Below, piece by piece: positions 23,864 through 32,379 of a stretch of DNA of 64,000 nt (positions within the stretch are counted from its first letter, which is position 1; each line of letters begins with the position of its first letter). The stretch comes from Actinomycetota bacterium. Lineage in GTDB: Bacteria > Actinomycetota > Actinomycetes > Propionibacteriales > Propionibacteriaceae. The stretch covers positions 1 to 64,000 of the forward strand of contig JAIUOS010000008.1 of NCBI GenBank assembly GCA_020161755.1. Reading direction: 5' to 3'. Both the position numbers and the translations under genes were made by a program. Below the pieces are notes generated by a model, which was not told the origin of the DNA, ran no database searches, and worked only from the letters and a program-made list of their open reading frames with translations.

Positions 23864-24853
23864 GTGGCGCGTGGCAGGGTGACCGCGGAGGACGTGGCGC
23901 GGGTGGCCGGGGTGTCCCGGGCGACCGTGAGCTACGTGCTGAACAACCACCCGCACCAGACGATCCCCGAAGCCACCCGGCAGAAGGTGCTCGCTGCGGC
24001 CGCCGAACTCGAGTACACGCCGTTGGCCTCGGCCCGCATCCTCAGCCGGGGACGCAGCGACGTGGTCGTGATGCTGATCCCGGACTGGCCGCTCGGCGCC
24101 GTCCTGCCCCAGGTGATGGACGCGGTGGCGTCCGGACTCGCGCCCCACGGCTTCGAACTCTTCCTGCACCGGTGCACCGCCGGCCGACCGGTGAAGAACC
24201 TGTGGGCGGCGATCACGCCAGCCGCCGTGATCCGCGTCGGCAGTCTGGGCGAAGAGGAGGACGAGAGCCTCCGTCGCTCCCAGATCGGGTACCTGCTGGA
24301 GCTCGCGAACACCGAGCTCGAGAAGGGCCTGGTGCTGTTCCCCGGCGTCCAGACCGGCCGGTTGCAGGCCGAGCACCTTGCCGGACGCGGACACCGGCGG
24401 ATCGGCTACGCCTGGCCGGCCGATCCCCGCATCGAAGGTTTCGCGACCGCGCGGCTCGCCGGCGTCCGGCAGGCGTGCGTGGACCTCGGGCTCGAGCCCC
24501 CCGTCGTCCAGCCGGTCTCCTTCGAGGCCGCCGAGGCCACGGATGCGATCCGGGAGTGGAAGGGGCGCGGCGTCACCGGCGTGTGCGCCTTCAACGACGA
24601 ACTGGCAATCGGCATGATCCAGGCCGCCCGCACCCTGGGGTTCGTGGTGCCGGACGACCTCGCGATCGTCGGCGTCGACAACCTCCCGTGGAGCGCGCTG
24701 ACCGAACCGGCCCTGACCACGGTTGCGCCCAACCCCGACCGCATCGGCGAGGTGATCACCGAGCGCGTGCTCGCCGGTCTCGGCGGCAGCGCCGACGAGC
24801 GTGGCCCGGCGGGCAGTTCGTTCATCTGCCTGATCGTCCGCGACTCGGCCTGA
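23864..24853 (+). CDS. LacI-family repressor of the rhamnoside operon
   Basis: A 329-residue regulator. The HTH and hinge read VTAEDVARVAGVSRATVSYV and then NNHPHQTIPEATRQKVLAAA. A periplasmic-binding-like effector domain follows, with GHRRIGYAWP, CAFNDELAIGM and DDLAIVGVDNLPWSALTEP. It starts with GTG after GGAGGTGGG. The effector domain is slightly short before residue 100. It is divergent from the MFS-GH78-esterase-padC operon, which it most likely represses until rhamnose or a rhamnoside is present. Confidence 0.92.
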   Translation: MARGRVTAEDVARVAGVSRATVSYVLNNHPHQTIPEATRQKVLAAAAELEYTPLASARILSRGRSDVVVMLIPDWPLGAVLPQVMDAVASGLAPHGFELFLHRCTAGRPVKNLWAAITPAAVIRVGSLGEEEDESLRRSQIGYLLELANTELEKGLVLFPGVQTGRLQAEHLAGRGHRRIGYAWPADPRIEGFATARLAGVRQACVDLGLEPPVVQPVSFEAAEATDAIREWKGRGVTGVCAFNDELAIGMIQAARTLGFVVPDDLAIVGVDNLPWSALTEPALTTVAPNPDRIGEVITERVLAGLGGSADERGPAGSSFICLIVRDSA

Positions 24854-25033: not shown

Positions 25034-26554
25034 ATGGCGAGCGGTCGAGCGACACCGGCGGTCCCACCGACGGCGAAGAAGCGGCCGACCAAGGACGTGA
25101 TCCTGGACGCGGCGAAGGAACTGATGACCGCCCAGGGCGTCAGTGCGACCTCGGTCGAGGAGATCGCGCGCGCCGCGGGCTGCCAGCGCGTCACCGTCTA
25201 CACCCACTTCGGCTCGAAGGAGGGCCTCGCGCTCGCCGTCCTCGAGGACCTGATCGCCCACTGGGCGCACCACTCCGCGGTCGACCAACCCACCTCGAGT
25301 GGGGGTGGCGACCGCTGGGAGCGCCTCCTCGTCGAGGTGTGGAGCGACGTCCGCGGCGACCAGGCCGGCAGCCAGCGCGTCCAGGCCATGATCGAGCAGG
25401 TGCGCCGGACGCTGGACGGCATCCCGGCTGCGCAGCGTCCCGAACGCATCGAGGCCGTCCTCGACCTGATCACGGCGTTCGACGAGTCGGCCCCGGCGGC
25501 CGTCGGCGACACCACCGTCACCCCCGAACCGGCGGCGGCGGACCCCGGTCCCTCCGGGCGCGTCTCGCCCACCATCAAGGAGGTCGCCGGACGCGCCGGC
25601 GTCTCCTTCAAGAGCGTGTCCCGCGTCATCAACGACCACCCCCACGTCACCGCCGAGCTGCGCGCGAAGGTCCAGTCCGCCATGCAGGAGCTCGGCTACT
25701 CCCCGAACGCGGTCGCCCGCACCCTGCGGTCGGCGACCTCGCCGACGGTCGGGCTCGTCATCGACGACAGCGAGGCCTTCCCCTACGCCTCCGACATCAT
25801 CCGCGGCGCGCAGGACGCGGCCGGCGACCTCGGCAAGGTCCTGCTGATCACCTACATCGACGGACGCGAGAGCTCGCGCGCCCAGGTGCTCGAACACCTC
25901 CGCCAGTGGCAGGTCGAGGGCGTCGCCTACACCTCCCCGCACCACCGGGTCATCCGCACCAGCGAGCTGCTGCCCTTCTCCCCCCTGGTGCTGGTCAACT
26001 GCACGCCCGCCGAACCCGGGCCGGCCTTCGCCGTCCCCGCCGAGTTCGACGGCGGCTACGTCGCCACCCGGGCCCTGATCGAGGCCGGGCACCGCCGGAT
26101 CGGCTTCATCAGCGGCCCGGCGGCCTTCCCGGCGTCCCGGCTGCGTCGCGAGGGCTACCTCGCTGCGCTCGCGGACGCCGGCCTGACGGCCGACCCGGCG
26201 CTGGAGTTCGTCGGCGACTGGTGGCAGGAGAGCGGCGCCACCGCGGCCCGCGCCCTGATGGCGCTGGGGGACCGCCCCACCGCCGTCTTCGCCTCCAACG
26301 ACTGGATGGCGATGGGCGTCTACGACGAGCTCCGCACCCTCGGCCTCTCGGTGCCGCGCGACGTCTCGATCGTCGGCTTCGACAACCGCGAGGTGATCGC
26401 CGCACACATGCGGCCGCCGCTCACCACCGTCGCCCTGCCCTACTACGAGATGGGACGGTGGGCCATCGAGGCCCTCCAGCACCGCAACACCGCCGGCGGC
26501 CAGTTCGCCTGCACGCTCGTCCGTCGCGATTCCGTCGCGGAGGTCACGAGTTGA
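25034..26554 (+). CDS. TetR-LacI fusion regulator with two DNA-binding domains
   Basis: A single 506-residue frame joins two regulator families. Residues about 20-66 are a TetR HTH (VILDAAKELMTAQGVSATSV, then RVTVYTHFGSKEGL). A shortened helical segment and a Pro/Ala-rich linker run to about 175. Residues about 178-231 are a complete LacI HTH with hinge (TIKEVAGRAGVSFKSVSRVI), and 237-506 are the sugar-binding domain with GHRRIGFISGP, FASNDWMAMGVY and DVSIVGFDN. ATG at 25034 follows AAGGGAG. The next operon, starting at 26653, has a LacI-type operator over its -35. The TetR half lacks most of the normal ligand domain, so it may only add DNA contacts. Confidence 0.92.
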   Translation: MASGRATPAVPPTAKKRPTKDVILDAAKELMTAQGVSATSVEEIARAAGCQRVTVYTHFGSKEGLALAVLEDLIAHWAHHSAVDQPTSSGGGDRWERLLVEVWSDVRGDQAGSQRVQAMIEQVRRTLDGIPAAQRPERIEAVLDLITAFDESAPAAVGDTTVTPEPAAADPGPSGRVSPTIKEVAGRAGVSFKSVSRVINDHPHVTAELRAKVQSAMQELGYSPNAVARTLRSATSPTVGLVIDDSEAFPYASDIIRGAQDAAGDLGKVLLITYIDGRESSRAQVLEHLRQWQVEGVAYTSPHHRVIRTSELLPFSPLVLVNCTPAEPGPAFAVPAEFDGGYVATRALIEAGHRRIGFISGPAAFPASRLRREGYLAALADAGLTADPALEFVGDWWQESGATAARALMALGDRPTAVFASNDWMAMGVYDELRTLGLSVPRDVSIVGFDNREVIAAHMRPPLTTVALPYYEMGRWAIEALQHRNTAGGQFACTLVRRDSVAEVTS

Positions 26555-26566
26555 TAACGCTCCATC

Positions 26567-26604
26567 TGACAACGTTGACAGACATGTGTCAGGTCATCTA
26601 CCGT
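26567..26604 (+). promoter_or_regulatory. Promoter with LacI-type operator, GH91/GH32 operon
   Basis: TGACAACGTTGACA at 26567-26580 has the 8-bp palindrome CAACGTTG at its core, as in LacI-family operators with a central CG. Its right half is also a consensus -35 (TTGACA, 26575-26580), with TACCGT 18 bp later at 26599-26604 as a TAnnnT -10. A bound repressor would block this promoter. A further TGACA...TGTCA pair follows at 26576-26591. The ABC importer starts 48 bp after the -10. Confidence 0.6.
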
Positions 26605-26652
26605 TCTGATATCCCGCCAACGGTGGCCGGGACTACCTAGAAAGGGGAGAGC

Positions 26653-27945
26653 GTGCGACTCAAGATCGGTACGGCAGTCCTTGCCGCCTCGCTCGCACTG
26701 GCCGGATGCTCGGCCTCAGCTACCGCATCCGCACCAGCATCGTCGGGCAGCGCCGCTGCCGGGCAGACCATCCGGATCCTCGCCGAGGGCGGCGGCGTCG
26801 GCCTCCAGAAGGGCATCGCCGAGCAGTTCACGAAGGACACCGGCATCAAGGTCGAGTTCGTCGAGGTCCCGTACGCGGATGTCCACGACAAGCTCGCCGC
26901 CGACATCTCGACCGGCGCCGGCTCCTACGACCTGGCCACGATCGACGTCATCTGGATGACCGAGTTCGGCCCGACCCTGGCGAACCTCGACGACGTGATG
27001 ACGCCCGAGGTGACCGCGGACCTGCCGGCCGCGCTGGTGGCGGACGCGAAGTTCGAGGACCACTTCATCGGCATGCCGCAGTGGGCGAACGCCGAGATCC
27101 TGTTCTACCGCACCGACCTGTTCTCCGACGCCAAGGAGCAGAAGGCGTTCAAGGCCGAGTTCGGCTACGACCTCGTCCCGCCGACCAACTGGCAGCAGTA
27201 CCGGGACGTGGCGAAGTTCTTCAACCGCCCCAAGGACAAGCTCTACGGCACCGCGGTCAAGGGTGCGGTCGAGACCGAGTGGCTCGCCTACGTGCTCCAG
27301 GCCGGCTCGCCGTCGGTCGTGCTCGACAGCTCCGGCGGGGTGATCATCGACGATGCCAACCACGTGAAGGCGCTCGAGGAGTACATCGCGCCGTACTGCA
27401 CCGACAAGGTCGGGCCCGATCCCGCCACCACCGACTGGGCCGCAGCGCAGAACCTCTTCTACCAGGGCCAGTCCGCGATGATGCTGTTCTGGGCGCACGC
27501 GTACCGCATGACGCCGGACGACAGCAAGGTCAACGGCAAGGTCGGCGTCGCCCCGATGATCGCCGGTCCCGGCGGCATCGCCGCGATCCCGGGCCCGTGG
27601 TACAACGTCGTCCCGAACGACTCGCCACACCCCGACCTGGCCAAGCAGTACATCACGTACGCCTACGACCACAACGTCATGGGCATCGATGCGCCGCTCG
27701 GCCTCGCCGCCCGCACCTCGGCCTACGAGCAGTTCCAGGACAAGGCCGGCTACGAGGCGTTCAAGCCGCTGCTGACCACGCTGAACGCGCCGGCGACCAC
27801 CGGGCGTCCGATGAACGTGCACTGGCAGCAGATCACGGACGAGGTGCTCACACCGAGCGTCCAGAAGGCCCTCACCTGCAAGGTGTCGCCCCAGGACGTC
27901 CTCACCGAGGCCAAGTCCAAGATCGAGGCGATCCTCAAGCAGTGA
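26653..27945 (+). CDS. ABC sugar-binding lipoprotein (GH91/GH32 operon)
   Basis: A 430-residue extracellular solute-binding protein of family 1. The signal peptide ends in the lipobox LALAGC with Cys19 for lipid anchoring, followed by a Ser/Ala-rich spacer. The mature domain has the usual pattern, with VEVPYADVHDKLAADISTGA near the start and a Gly/Trp-rich binding region (GGIAAIPGPWYN). GTG at 26653 is preceded by AAAGGGGAG. It is the first gene of the operon under the operator at 26567. The likely ligand is a fructose oligomer or difructose anhydride, judged from the enzymes downstream. Confidence 0.92.
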   Translation: MRLKIGTAVLAASLALAGCSASATASAPASSGSAAAGQTIRILAEGGGVGLQKGIAEQFTKDTGIKVEFVEVPYADVHDKLAADISTGAGSYDLATIDVIWMTEFGPTLANLDDVMTPEVTADLPAALVADAKFEDHFIGMPQWANAEILFYRTDLFSDAKEQKAFKAEFGYDLVPPTNWQQYRDVAKFFNRPKDKLYGTAVKGAVETEWLAYVLQAGSPSVVLDSSGGVIIDDANHVKALEEYIAPYCTDKVGPDPATTDWAAAQNLFYQGQSAMMLFWAHAYRMTPDDSKVNGKVGVAPMIAGPGGIAAIPGPWYNVVPNDSPHPDLAKQYITYAYDHNVMGIDAPLGLAARTSAYEQFQDKAGYEAFKPLLTTLNAPATTGRPMNVHWQQITDEVLTPSVQKALTCKVSPQDVLTEAKSKIEAILKQ

Positions 27946-28019
27946 CCTCCGCGGTGGGCGCGCCGCCACGCGCCCACCGTCCCACCCCATTCGCTCCCAG
28001 TGGAAAGGACGTCCGCACG

Positions 28020-28898
28020 ATGGCCCGTCGCCGCTTCGCAGCGCTGCTGATGCTCCCGGCAATCATCTTCCTGGTCGCCACCGTGGCCTACCCGCTGGGC
28101 ACGTTGCTGTTCAACTCGTTCTTCAACGTCAAGCTGCTCACGCCCAACCGGCGCACGTGGGTGGGGTTCGACGACTTCGTCAACACCCTCACCTCGCCGG
28201 AGGTCGGCACGGCCGCCCTCAAGACCCTCCAGTACTCGGCGTTCGCCATGACGCTCGAGCTGGTCCTCGGCTTCGGCGCCGCGCTGCTGTTCTACGCGAT
28301 GCGTGACCGCTCGGCGTGGGCCCGGACGATCTTCATCTTCCCGCTGCTCGTGCCGCCGATCGTTGCCGGCCTGCTCTGGAAGTTCCTGCTGTCGCTCGAC
28401 ACGGGCATGGTCAACCGGGTCATCGACCTCCTCGGCCTCACCCCGGCCGGCGGCCAGATCAACTGGCTCGGCAACGTCGACACCGTGATCTTCACCGTCT
28501 CCTTCGCCGACATCTGGCTCACCACCAGCTTCGTCGCGCTCGTCGCCTACGCCGGCCTGCAGGGGCTGCCGGCGGACGTGCTGGAGGCGGCGGAGGTCGA
28601 CGGCGCCGGCTACTGGCAACGCGTGTGGCACGTGATCCTGCCGCTGCTGCGCCCGGTGATCGCGGTCATCGTGATCATCCGTGGTGTGGACGTGGCCAAG
28701 ACCTTCGACCTGATCTTCATCCAGACCGAGGGCGGGCCGCAGGGGGCGTCCGAAGTGCTCAGCATGGAGATCTACCGCACCATGATCCGTTACGGCAACG
28801 TCGGCAGCGCGTCGGCGACGGCCGCCGTCTTCCTGCTGGTCATGGCCTTCTTCGCCGCCCTCGCCTACCGAGTGATCTGGAAGCCCGCCAATGACTGA
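28020..28898 (+). CDS. ABC sugar permease, MalF-like (GH91/GH32 operon)
   Basis: A 292-residue inner-membrane permease with six hydrophobic segments. The EAA loop is DVLEAAEVDGAGYWQRVWHV followed by ILPLLRP, which docks the ATPase. ATG at 28020 follows GGAAAGGACG. The C-terminal end overlaps the second permease by 8 bp. No ATPase is encoded in the operon, so a shared MsiK-type ATPase elsewhere in the genome is expected, as is common in actinobacteria. Confidence 0.93.
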   Translation: MARRRFAALLMLPAIIFLVATVAYPLGTLLFNSFFNVKLLTPNRRTWVGFDDFVNTLTSPEVGTAALKTLQYSAFAMTLELVLGFGAALLFYAMRDRSAWARTIFIFPLLVPPIVAGLLWKFLLSLDTGMVNRVIDLLGLTPAGGQINWLGNVDTVIFTVSFADIWLTTSFVALVAYAGLQGLPADVLEAAEVDGAGYWQRVWHVILPLLRPVIAVIVIIRGVDVAKTFDLIFIQTEGGPQGASEVLSMEIYRTMIRYGNVGSASATAAVFLLVMAFFAALAYRVIWKPAND

Positions 28899-29730
28899 CA
28901 CCCGCCGTCCCCGCCTCGCGAAGACCGTCTCGGCCCAGCTCGGCATGCTCCTGGTCGTGGGCGCGTTCGTTCTGCCGTACGCCCACCTGCTCCTGACCTC
29001 GTTCAAGGCGCCCACCGAGGTGCTCGCGATCCCGCCGACGTTCCTGCCCAGCCACTTCGAGCTCACCAACTACCAGACCGCGCTCAACGACCCCGGCATC
29101 GGACGGTCGTTCATCAACAGCCTGGTGGTCGCCGTCGGTGGCACCGCGCTCACCCTGTTCCTCGCCATTCCGGCCGCCTACGCCGCGGCCTTCTACGGCA
29201 CCAGGCTGGGACGCGTCTTCCTGATGGTCGCGCTGATCGTGCGCATGCTGCCGCCGGTCGCCCTCGCCATCCCGATCTTCCAGGCGTTCCGCCAGCTCCG
29301 GCTGATCGACACCCAGCTCGGCCTGATGCTCGCGCAGACCATCATCAGTCTGCCGCTGGTCATCTGGCTGCTCGCGGCCTTCTTCGAGGCCATCCCCCAG
29401 GCCTTGGAGGAGGCCGCTCTGATCGACGGCTGCAACCGGCTCACCGCGATGATCCGCGTCACGCTGCCGGTCGCCGGCGGCGGCATCGCGGTCGCCGCGA
29501 TCTTCGCGTTCCTGTCGTCGTGGAACGAGTTCCTCTTCGCCCTCATGCTCACCTCGGTGAACGCGGTCACGGTCCCGCTGGCGATCGCCAACTTCAAGTC
29601 CCAGTTCGGCCTCGACTGGGGTTCGATGACCGCGCTCGCGGTCATGTACTCGCTCCCGGTGATCGCGGTCACCCTCGCCCTCCAGCGGCGGATCGTCTCC
29701 GGCATGACCTTCGGAGCCGTCAAGGGCTGA
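28891..29730 (+). CDS. ABC sugar permease, MalG-like (GH91/GH32 operon)
   Basis: A 279-residue partner permease with six hydrophobic segments. Its EAA loop is ALEEAALIDGCNRLTAMIRV followed by TLPVAG. The C-terminus RRIVSGMTFGAVKG is the usual MalG ending. It overlaps the preceding permease and is followed 40 bp later by the GH91 gene. Confidence 0.93.
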   Translation: MTDTRRPRLAKTVSAQLGMLLVVGAFVLPYAHLLLTSFKAPTEVLAIPPTFLPSHFELTNYQTALNDPGIGRSFINSLVVAVGGTALTLFLAIPAAYAAAFYGTRLGRVFLMVALIVRMLPPVALAIPIFQAFRQLRLIDTQLGLMLAQTIISLPLVIWLLAAFFEAIPQALEEAALIDGCNRLTAMIRVTLPVAGGGIAVAAIFAFLSSWNEFLFALMLTSVNAVTVPLAIANFKSQFGLDWGSMTALAVMYSLPVIAVTLALQRRIVSGMTFGAVKG

Positions 29731-29770
29731 CCGCACCCACCCCCTTCCCACCCGAGACCGAGAGAGCCCC

Positions 29771-31105
29771 ATGCCCAGTCCCAACTGCTACGACGTCACC
29801 GCCTGGCCGGTCGGTGACCCGGTCGACGACGTCGGCGCGGTGATCAACAGCATCATCGCCGACATCAAGGCCCGGCAGACCGTCGCCGACGACGACGGAC
29901 GCGGCAAGCCCGGCGCGGTGATCTACCTCCCGCCCGGCGACTACCGGCTGCGGACGCAGGTGCGGATCGACGTCAGCTTCCTGCGCATCGAGGGCTCGGG
30001 GCACGGGTTCACGTCCTCGAGCATCCGGTTCAACGTGCCCGTGGACGAGCGTCCCGGCCTGCACGAGCTGTGGCCCGGCGGCAGCCGCGTCCTGGTCGAC
30101 CTGCCGGTGGCCGAGGACGAGGCCGGCGGCGCCGCCTTCCTGGTCGAGCGCGACGGCAGCCCGCGGATCAGCTCGGTCGAGTTCTCCTCGTTCTGCATCG
30201 ACGGGCTGCACTTCACGTCGGACGGCTCGGGGCTCGACCCGGAGAACACCTATGCCAACGGCAAGACCGGCATCCACGTCGCGGGGGCGAACGACTCGTT
30301 CCGCATCAACGGGATGGGCTTCGTGTACCTCGAGCACGCGGTCACAGTCCACCACGCCGACGCGTTGTCCGTCCACGACAACTTCATCGCCGAGTGCGGG
30401 AACTGCATCGAGCTGCGCGGCTGGGGGCAGGCGTCCAAGATCACCGACAACCTGATCGGCGCCGGTTTCAAGGGCCACTCGATCTACGCTGAGAACCACG
30501 GGGGCCTCCTGGTCACCGCGAACAACGTGTTCCCGCGTGGCGCGAGCAGCGTGCGTTTCGAGGGCGTGACCCGGTCGAGCCTGACGAACAACCGGCTGCA
30601 CTCGTTCTACCCGGGCATGGTCGTTCTCGCCCGGGACAGTTCGGAGAACCTCATCGCCGCCAACCACTTCCTGCGTGACCGCGAGCCGTGGACGCCGTTC
30701 GACGGCGTGGACAACGGCCTCGACGACCTGTTCGGGCTGGTCAGCATCAGCGGACGCAACAACTCCGTGATCGGCAACCACTTCTCCGAGGTGCTCGATC
30801 GGGCGGACGTCCGGCCGGCCGGTGCGCGCCCGGTGATCGTGCGGGTGGCGGACGGCGGCGGCAACTACCTGGCCAACAACCACGTGGTCGCGCTCGACGT
30901 GCGCAGCGCGTCCGGCGATTCGGCGTACGCCGCCCAGGTGGACGCCCTGCTGGCGACGACGGCTCCGGGGTGCCTGCCCGTGACGACCGTCCTGGTCGCT
31001 CCCGGGTCGGTACAGAACACGATCCTGGACTCCGGCGCCGACGCCGAGGTGGACGCCGACCGCGCGGCGAACGCCGTCCGGGCGACGCCGGGGGTGGGGT
31101 TCTGA
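29771..31105 (+). CDS. GH91 difructose-anhydride enzyme, cytoplasmic (likely DFA hydrolase)
   Basis: A 444-residue right-handed beta-helix protein. Family 91 features include GAVIYLPPGDYRLRTQVRID, LRIEGSGHGFTSSSIRFNVP and LHELWPGGSRVLVDLP. The catalytic acids appear as D203 (VHDNF) and E214 (CIELRGWG). Their 11-residue spacing is the same as D233/E244 of the Bacillus inulin fructotransferase. Secreted fructotransferases carry a signal peptide, whereas this protein starts MPSPNCYDVTAW without one. Sitting between an importer and a cytoplasmic GH32, it is more likely a difructose-anhydride hydrolase working on the imported cyclic disaccharide than an inulin-degrading transferase. DFA I versus DFA III cannot be decided. 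Confidence 0.85.
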   Translation: MPSPNCYDVTAWPVGDPVDDVGAVINSIIADIKARQTVADDDGRGKPGAVIYLPPGDYRLRTQVRIDVSFLRIEGSGHGFTSSSIRFNVPVDERPGLHELWPGGSRVLVDLPVAEDEAGGAAFLVERDGSPRISSVEFSSFCIDGLHFTSDGSGLDPENTYANGKTGIHVAGANDSFRINGMGFVYLEHAVTVHHADALSVHDNFIAECGNCIELRGWGQASKITDNLIGAGFKGHSIYAENHGGLLVTANNVFPRGASSVRFEGVTRSSLTNNRLHSFYPGMVVLARDSSENLIAANHFLRDREPWTPFDGVDNGLDDLFGLVSISGRNNSVIGNHFSEVLDRADVRPAGARPVIVRVADGGGNYLANNHVVALDVRSASGDSAYAAQVDALLATTAPGCLPVTTVLVAPGSVQNTILDSGADAEVDADRAANAVRATPGVGF

Positions 31106-32379
31106 TGGGCGCCGGCTCGCTGCGTCCGGGGTTTCATTTCACGGCGGGGTCGGGGTGGATCAATGATCCGCATGGGATCACGTGGCGTGATGGTGGGTAT
31201 GACGTGTTCTTCCAGTTCGTGCCGGGGTCGTTGGTGTGGCAGCCGGATTGTCATTGGGGCCATGCCCGGGGTGAGGACTTGCTGTCGTTGCGGGAGTTGC
31301 CGGTGGCGATTGCGCCGGGGGAGGGCGATGACGGGATGTGGACGGGTTCGTTGGTGCGCGACGCCGGTGGTGGGGCGTTGGTGTTCTACACGGCGACGTC
31401 GGTGCCGGAGTTCGGGATCGGTCGTGTCCGGACGGCGACCCCGGTTGATGAGGGCTGGATCGGTTGGGTGAAGGGCCCGGTGGTGGTGGAGGCGCCGGCG
31501 GGTCTGGACCTGGTGGCGTTTCGGGATCCGTTCGTGCGTCGTGAGGGTGCCGGCTGGCGGATGTTCGTGGGCGGGGCGGGTCGGGACGGGACGGCGATGG
31601 CGCTGACCTGGGTGTCGGAGGACCTGGGGTCGTGGCGGTATGACGGGGTGGCGTTGGCCCGGTCGGGCAGGGAGACGGTGCCGGTGTGGACGGGGGCGTT
31701 GTGGGAGTGCCCGCAGGTGTTCCCGTTGGGGGACCGGTGGGTGATGGTGTCCTCGGTGTGGGATGCCGACACCTTGCACTATGTGGCCTACGCGCTGGGG
31801 TCGTACGCCGGCGGGCGGTTCACCGCCGAGACGTGGGGCCGGTTGACCTATGGGTCGAGCTATTACGCCCCGTCGCTGTTCGTGGATGGCCGGGGGCGGG
31901 CGTGTATGTCGTTCTGGATGCGGGGGGTGTCGGATCCGGTGGCGGGTTGGGTGGGGGCGCACAGCCTTCCGCACGTGTTGAGCCTTCAGGGGGATCGGCT
32001 GGTCGCCTGGCCGCACCCGGACGTGGAGCGGTACCACCACGAACACGAGGCCACGGTCCTGGATGCGGTCGATGTCGACGCGGTCGATGTGTGCTGGGAC
32101 CCGGCACCCGGCGACCTGCTGCGGGTGTGGCGCGGCCAGCAGGTGGTCGCCACCATCGAACGCACCCTGACGGGGTTGAGGGTGGGTGTCGGCGGTGAGG
32201 TCGAGAGCATGCCGGCCGAGGGCCAGGTACGGATCGTCGTCGACGGGCCGGTCCTCGAACTGGCCACCACCGGCGCGAACTTCGGCGCCGCCGTCGGAGT
32301 CGGCGAGGGCGGGCTCACCGTCACCACCGAAGGGACGCCCGCCCACGTCCGCGACCTCGTCCGGACCGAGTCGCTCTGA
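31105..32379 (+). CDS. GH32 beta-fructosidase (cytoplasmic)
   Basis: A 424-residue five-bladed beta-propeller glycosidase. The nucleophile is in SGWINDPHGITW, the transition-state Asp in VAFRDPFV, and the acid/base Glu in LWECPQVFPL. It starts at ATG 31105 within the GH91 stop (TGATG), so the two are translated together. No signal peptide. It should split inulobiose, sucrose-like or short fructo-oligosaccharides into fructose after the GH91 step. Codon use in the first 900 bp (many TTG, GGG, GCG, CGT and GAT) differs from its neighbours and from its own last 350 bp, which suggests a separate origin or recombination. Confidence 0.9.
   Translation: MGAGSLRPGFHFTAGSGWINDPHGITWRDGGYDVFFQFVPGSLVWQPDCHWGHARGEDLLSLRELPVAIAPGEGDDGMWTGSLVRDAGGGALVFYTATSVPEFGIGRVRTATPVDEGWIGWVKGPVVVEAPAGLDLVAFRDPFVRREGAGWRMFVGGAGRDGTAMALTWVSEDLGSWRYDGVALARSGRETVPVWTGALWECPQVFPLGDRWVMVSSVWDADTLHYVAYALGSYAGGRFTAETWGRLTYGSSYYAPSLFVDGRGRACMSFWMRGVSDPVAGWVGAHSLPHVLSLQGDRLVAWPHPDVERYHHEHEATVLDAVDVDAVDVCWDPAPGDLLRVWRGQQVVATIERTLTGLRVGVGGEVESMPAEGQVRIVVDGPVLELATTGANFGAAVGVGEGGLTVTTEGTPAHVRDLVRTESL

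Follow-up and report, generated by a model that had tools for sequence, protein, structure and literature searches.

A conserved TetR-LacI fusion regulator ahead of a probable difructose anhydride III operon in Propionibacteriaceae

The regulator encoded at 25034-26554 of the window (the whole analyzed stretch of 64,000 nucleotides, positions 1 to 64,000 of contig JAIUOS010000008.1, assembly GCA_020161755.1, from a member of the Propionibacteriaceae) is a real, conserved, and rare fusion of a TetR-type and a LacI-type protein. Its single chain carries two helix-turn-helix (HTH) domains of different families; bacterial one-component regulators normally have a single HTH. A homologue with 68% identity from end to end is encoded at L028:7989-9521 (DJWE01000092.1) in Propionibacteriaceae bacterium UBA6238, a metagenome assembly, so that the pairing of TetR_N with LacI proposed as a search in an earlier note on this DNA is conserved, and the lack of any such homologue, named there as grounds for dropping the idea, did not materialize. 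Our main reading, to which we assign a probability of roughly 0.45, is a sugar-inducible LacI repressor with a TetR head as a second DNA contact, likely at a conserved promoter element termed block 2.

The fusion gene starts with ATG, preceded by GAAGGGAG, and runs on the plus strand without an internal stop for 506 residues, confirming the uninterrupted frame of a TetR HTH and a complete LacI protein that the earlier note had described. The TetR_N DNA-binding domain (residues 23-69; 25100-25240) matches the whole Pfam PF00440 profile with 62.4 bits against a cut-off of 24 bits. An AlphaFold2 model of the N half (177 aa, 10 alignment rows; mean pLDDT 74.6, pTM 0.51) places HTH helices at residues 19-34, 41-48, and 52-59, followed by four predicted helices at 62-84, 94-108, 110-128, and 137-151 that compose a shortened TetR C-terminal part (residues 62-151; 25217-25486, plus strand). 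In the model, the TetR part is more than the HTH and "shortened connector" named in the earlier note. The TetR part matches TetR open frames 189-222 aa long (four of them were aligned with it), 58 PDB sequences show similarity to the TetR side of the N half, and a Foldseek search with the N-half model returns 27 matches at E ≤ 0.001; the 50 matches listed are mostly annotated as TetR family and resemble the model loosely, their TM-scores (by query length) being 0.30-0.46. Pfam detects no TetR-type C-terminal ligand domain in the fusion protein. Judged from the model, the TetR part resembles a TetR protein in shortened form, whose final helices seem absent or changed. The last helices of TetR proteins form the dimer interface.

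A Pro/Ala-rich segment (residues 152-177; 25487-25564, plus strand) joins the two halves, and residues 149-176, with pLDDT below 50, are modeled as a flexible linker. Beyond it, on the same strand, lie the LacI HTH (residues 180-225; 25571-25708; whole PF00356 profile, 65.4 bits, cut-off 27 bits), the hinge helix (residues 226-233; 25709-25732), helical in the model and carrying ARTLRS in both homologues, and the sugar-binding and dimerisation core (residues 236-486; 25739-26491), which comprises PF13377 (Peripla_BP_3; 346-486, 124.8 bits) and PF00532 (237-480). The full-chain AlphaFold2 model (506 aa, 26 rows; mean pLDDT 79.0) is confident for the LacI part, with a pLDDT of 67-75 in the hinge helix block and mostly at least 80 in the alpha/beta core; a MAFFT alignment that placed TetR-only rows on the LacI HTH was left out of folding. 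No in-frame ATG, GTG, or TTG occurs in residues 124-194, so separate translation of the LacI half from within the frame is unlikely. Altogether, 103 PDB sequences match the whole fusion protein; the best 60 of these 103 all fall on the LacI half, with RbsR, CcpA, and PurR as its best solved matches.

The chain shares features with both families and departs from each. Like the LacI/GalR repressors RbsR, CcpA, and PurR, it possesses a complete LacI HTH, a hinge helix, and a periplasmic-binding-type, sugar-binding core, and it is encoded beside a sugar operon with a CG-centered operator candidate. Unlike in those repressors, its LacI HTH is not at the very N end, as ~177 residues bearing a TetR-type HTH precede it. 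With the TetR family it shares the complete TetR_N HTH, helix 4, and further C-terminal helices, but the C-terminal part is shortened, lacks a Pfam ligand domain, and is joined to LacI.

The operon downstream begins with the gene of an ABC transporter solute-binding protein (26653-27945; Pfam SBP_bac_1), 98 bp past the fusion stop, and continues on the plus strand with two ABC permease genes (28065-28898 and 28891-29730; both Pfam BPD_transp_1), the gene of a 444-aa relative of difructose anhydride III hydrolase (DFA-IIIase; 29771-31105), and a GH32 enzyme gene (31120-32379; Glyco_hydro_32N, E 3.8e-50); for the first permease and the GH32 enzyme, coordinates give the searched stretch plus the stop, and the start codon is unsettled. 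In phmmer searches, the 444-aa protein matches the DFA-IIIase structures 5zl5 (E 1e-228) and 5zks (E 3e-228) over residues 1-444, and inulin fructotransferases match it far worse (E 2e-114 and weaker); by these matches, its Pfam label, inulin fructotransferase, is less exact than DFA-IIIase. In Blautia, an ABC transporter, a GH91 DFA-IIIase, and a GH32 enzyme have been proposed, in the available text of PMC11538131, to import difructose anhydride III (DFA-III) and convert it via inulobiose to fructose. The same gene set here points to DFA-III use, and 26653-32379 is probably an operon for DFA-III uptake and breakdown. No ATPase is present among its five identified genes, and one may be shared from elsewhere.

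The fusion gene adjoins such an operon in both species in which it was found, as the earlier note had asked to be checked, and in L028 it precedes the same transporter gene as in the window. Among 30 genomes of the genus, a DFA-IIIase gene is present in four at E 1e-40: the window's own genome, G005, G015, and G020. Two of these four, the own genome and G005, carry the fusion; G005:C86 must be the same place as L028, and the solute-binding protein of the window is 91% identical to that of G005 over residues 2-378. The fusion was not found in G020, where the contig (3293 bp) ends ahead of the binding-protein gene and the genome is 80% complete. In UBA6238, the genes for the binding protein and the DFA-IIIase form one continuous frame (L028:9573-12029, 818 aa) that lacks the two intervening permease genes, explained either by a deletion that the organism itself carries or by a join made during assembly.

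Comparison of the fusion-operon intergenic region with L028 revealed two fully conserved blocks on the plus strand. Block 1, a candidate LacI-type operator (CTGACAACGTTGACA; 26566-26580), is identical at 15/15 positions and contains an even, CG-centered dyad (TGACAACGTTGACA; 26567-26580) with arms TGACAAC and GTTGACA, which overlaps a TTGACA at 26575-26580. These properties agree with the claim that a LacI-type operator lies on the promoter of a closely spaced operon; in the available part of PMC4052901, LacI motifs are even in 1251/1303 cases and CG-centered in 1173/1303. Block 2, a candidate second operator (TATCCCGCCAACGGTGGCCGGGA; 26610-26632), is identical at 23/23 positions, and its best dyad is odd, 21 bp long, and arranged about the single base 26622, with 8/10 arm pairs. 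The blocks lie 48 bp apart, center to center. Identity falls to 12/29 positions in the 29 bp that separate them and to 5/11 in the 11 bp immediately ahead of block 1. Identity need not mean an operator, since further stretches match throughout, namely 18 bp spanning the end of the fusion gene (26542-26559) and 13 bp of ribosome-site sequence (26640-26652), where the match continues into the next gene. Dyads as good arise in shuffled sequence (82/2000 for the odd and 208/2000 for the even type), so symmetry alone proves nothing and conservation alone speaks for the blocks. Neither block has a second exact copy in the window's own genome; for block 2, the query comprised 20 of its 23 bases. By eye, TTGACA is followed in both species by an 18-bp spacer and a TANNNT hexamer (TACCGT and TAGCCT); a scan with a strict consensus found no promoter. 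As an RNA hairpin, block 2 can fold, yet no better than shuffles (z -0.27), and we rejected this candidate.

In a third species, G015, the regulator that accompanies the homologous operon is a plain LacI with 40% identity, encoded directly after the DFA-IIIase gene and followed by a GH32 domain gene. Before this operon lies a promoter dyad (CCAAGACGTTTTGGCAAAACGTCTTGG; L068:14362-14388) of 27 nt, formed by two complementary 13-nt arms about one base and possessing two CG centers 13 bp apart. Since preferred spacings of LacI site pairs are given as about 13, 22, and 32 bp (PMC4052901, available part), the dyad would fit an overlapping LacI double site. Block 2 is absent from the G015 locus at up to 3 mismatches, and block 1 is absent from L065-L068 (G015 included) and L083 at up to 2 mismatches, indicating that LacI-only relatives do without this exact operator. 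The pattern suggests that fusion carriers may have a single LacI site plus a further contact in place of the double site of the plain LacI. Other LacI-only relatives include those of G001 (44%), with two GH32 neighbors, and of Streptomyces NZ_CP130719 (42.5%), with an annotated GH32 gene adjoining. Together, the G015 plain LacI with its possible double site and the two fusions with a LacI site and a new dyad make a gain of operator specificity or affinity through fusion directly testable.

We propose that the fusion protein would act as a sugar-responsive repressor of the probable DFA-III operon. The LacI half would dimerise and cover the -35 region by binding its operator (26567-26580), and its core would bind a DFA-III-derived sugar (DFA-III, inulobiose, or fructose), upon which the repressor would release. 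A TetR head on each N end, held by the flexible linker, would supply a second, TetR-type DNA contact, for which the likeliest site would be the dyad of block 2 (26610-26632), close to where transcription is expected to begin, and one chain would thereby cover a bipartite operator. Control of 26653-32379 by the LacI half is very probable, and we infer that this half binds block 1 and is sugar-induced. DNA binding by the TetR head is predicted at somewhat better than even odds, and its placement on block 2 is a guess, and a doubtful one. The compound operator imagined in the earlier note gains a suggestive second dyad, for which TetR binding is only a candidate, and nothing found speaks for the DNA looping that it also raised. 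A further form of the proposal, in which two heads of unrelated families and one sugar sensor would read a hybrid LacI and TetR operator, the TetR head having replaced a second LacI dimer, appears somewhat unlikely; the notion of a second LacI dimer derives from the double site that the plain LacI of the relative may use.

Divergence between the window fusion gene and its L028 homologue, two sequences on which all fusion comparisons rest, was partitioned by NG86. Fourfold sites are identical at 82/214 (20/59 in the TetR part and 62/155 in the LacI part). The dN/dS ratio is 0.30 (dS 0.69) for the TetR HTH (residues 15-72), 0.42 (dS 1.09) for residues 73-153, 0.06 (dS 1.09) for the LacI HTH and hinge (residues 178-236), and 0.16 (dS 1.05) for the LacI core; for the linker, NG86 leaves dS undefined. 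Identical residues number 40/58 in the TetR HTH and 52/59 in the LacI HTH and hinge. These ratios indicate that selection acts on the TetR part, more loosely than on the LacI part; the TetR half is under constraint, with a DNA target that is only a candidate. They bear on a quite unlikely alternative, regulation by the LacI half alone, with the TetR part as a passenger, either accreted or in decay, that makes no DNA contact or, in a variant, serves only as a solubility, dimer, or partner module. The weaker conservation of the TetR part (89/176 identical residues versus 255/329 in the LacI part), its shortening, its attachment through a flexible linker, and the operation of the homologous G015 operon with a plain LacI would all agree with a passenger; the complete TetR HTH in both species, at a dN/dS of 0.30, speaks against one, as does a frame that stayed open while so few fourfold sites remained identical.

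Likewise improbable is a second alternative, in which DNA is contacted by each of the two HTHs but block 2 serves as another LacI site or as a 5' UTR element. The TetR head would then have its site somewhere else, for example at the regulator's own promoter or a distant operator. Blocks 1 and 2 share CAACGNTG, so that block 2 could be a weak LacI site, and it lies, by our reading, about where the transcript should start. Autoregulation, moreover, is common among TetR regulators. Between the two species, sequence upstream of the fusion gene is nevertheless little conserved except for the ribosome site, and a 48-bp spacing is not among the LacI pair peaks of 13, 22, and 32 bp (PMC4052901, available part).

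The distribution of the fusion is narrow. In a scan of genome contigs, one of 6 loci, L028, matches it over residues 5-506; that chain has the same Pfam domains with both HTHs whole (TetR_N 57 bits). The same junction, spacing, and frame in this second species argue against a missing stop, a read error, or a chimera, and a sequencing or assembly error joining two genes is thus vanishingly improbable, even with both genomes in many contigs and the second a metagenome assembly. Within the genus, 2/30 genomes, own included, give a full-length match. A model of residues 1-245 is passed at E 1e-17 by 17/198 genomes of the family, of which only the same two cover both HTHs; the other 15 matches begin at model position 145 or later, on the LacI HTH side. 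Samples of the order (391), class (394), and phylum (396), in which G005 was not drawn, yielded no cover of both HTHs except the window's own; candidates scored per genome numbered 13 for the family and 6 for the three wider samples, a depth at which unrelated fusions could escape. By eye, no TetR half precedes the LacI half in the LacI matches L070, L071, L068, and L055, and no TetR-then-LacI chain appears in the TetR matches L099-L102 read from stop to stop; L072 was left out of this reading, the frame read there being a binding-protein gene and not the LacI match. Among plasmids, 2 records have one place covering at least 80% of the query, and no record reaches 80% coverage for a query of residues 1-249. 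On viral contigs, 42 stretches fit the pattern, none of which encodes a relative.

The nearest mechanistic precedent appears to be Mce3R, a chain of two TetR units whose two unlike HTHs act on a non-palindromic site (PMC11667970, available text); its chain 9b7y matches the TetR HTH of the fusion at E 5e-7. Both proteins have two different HTHs per chain; Mce3R has a pair of sites on a single promoter with a distance of 53 bp, and the promoter next to the fusion gene has two blocks separated by 48 bp, center to center. Both Mce3R halves are TetR, whereas the fusion combines two families, with a LacI HTH as its second and a LacI-type ligand domain. The claim that no described regulator has this layout can be checked only in part: no other example was found in the genome samples, where unrelated fusions could be missed, and no natural TetR-LacI chain in the accessible portion of 5.39 million open papers; a survey whose counts of companion domains are 70 (TetR) and 25 (LacI) (PMC5882156, available part) may hold the fusion unnamed. 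The Blautia DFA-III clusters likewise comprise an ABC transporter, a GH91 DFA-IIIase, and a GH32 enzyme, and the main text of PMC11538131 contains neither "LacI" nor "transcriptional regulator" (0 occurrences), so that neither term is used there for a regulator of the clusters. The fusion is a likely regulator of a DFA-III operon, and its conserved two-family HTH chain illustrates a single-step route by which operator specificity or affinity might be gained.

The window's own genome (G000) is rich in LacI genes, and most of its 56 places matching the fusion are on the LacI side. Within the window, a second, ordinary LacI gene (23864-24853) lies on the same strand just upstream of the fusion, beside genes for an MFS transporter and an alpha-L-rhamnosidase, both on the other strand.
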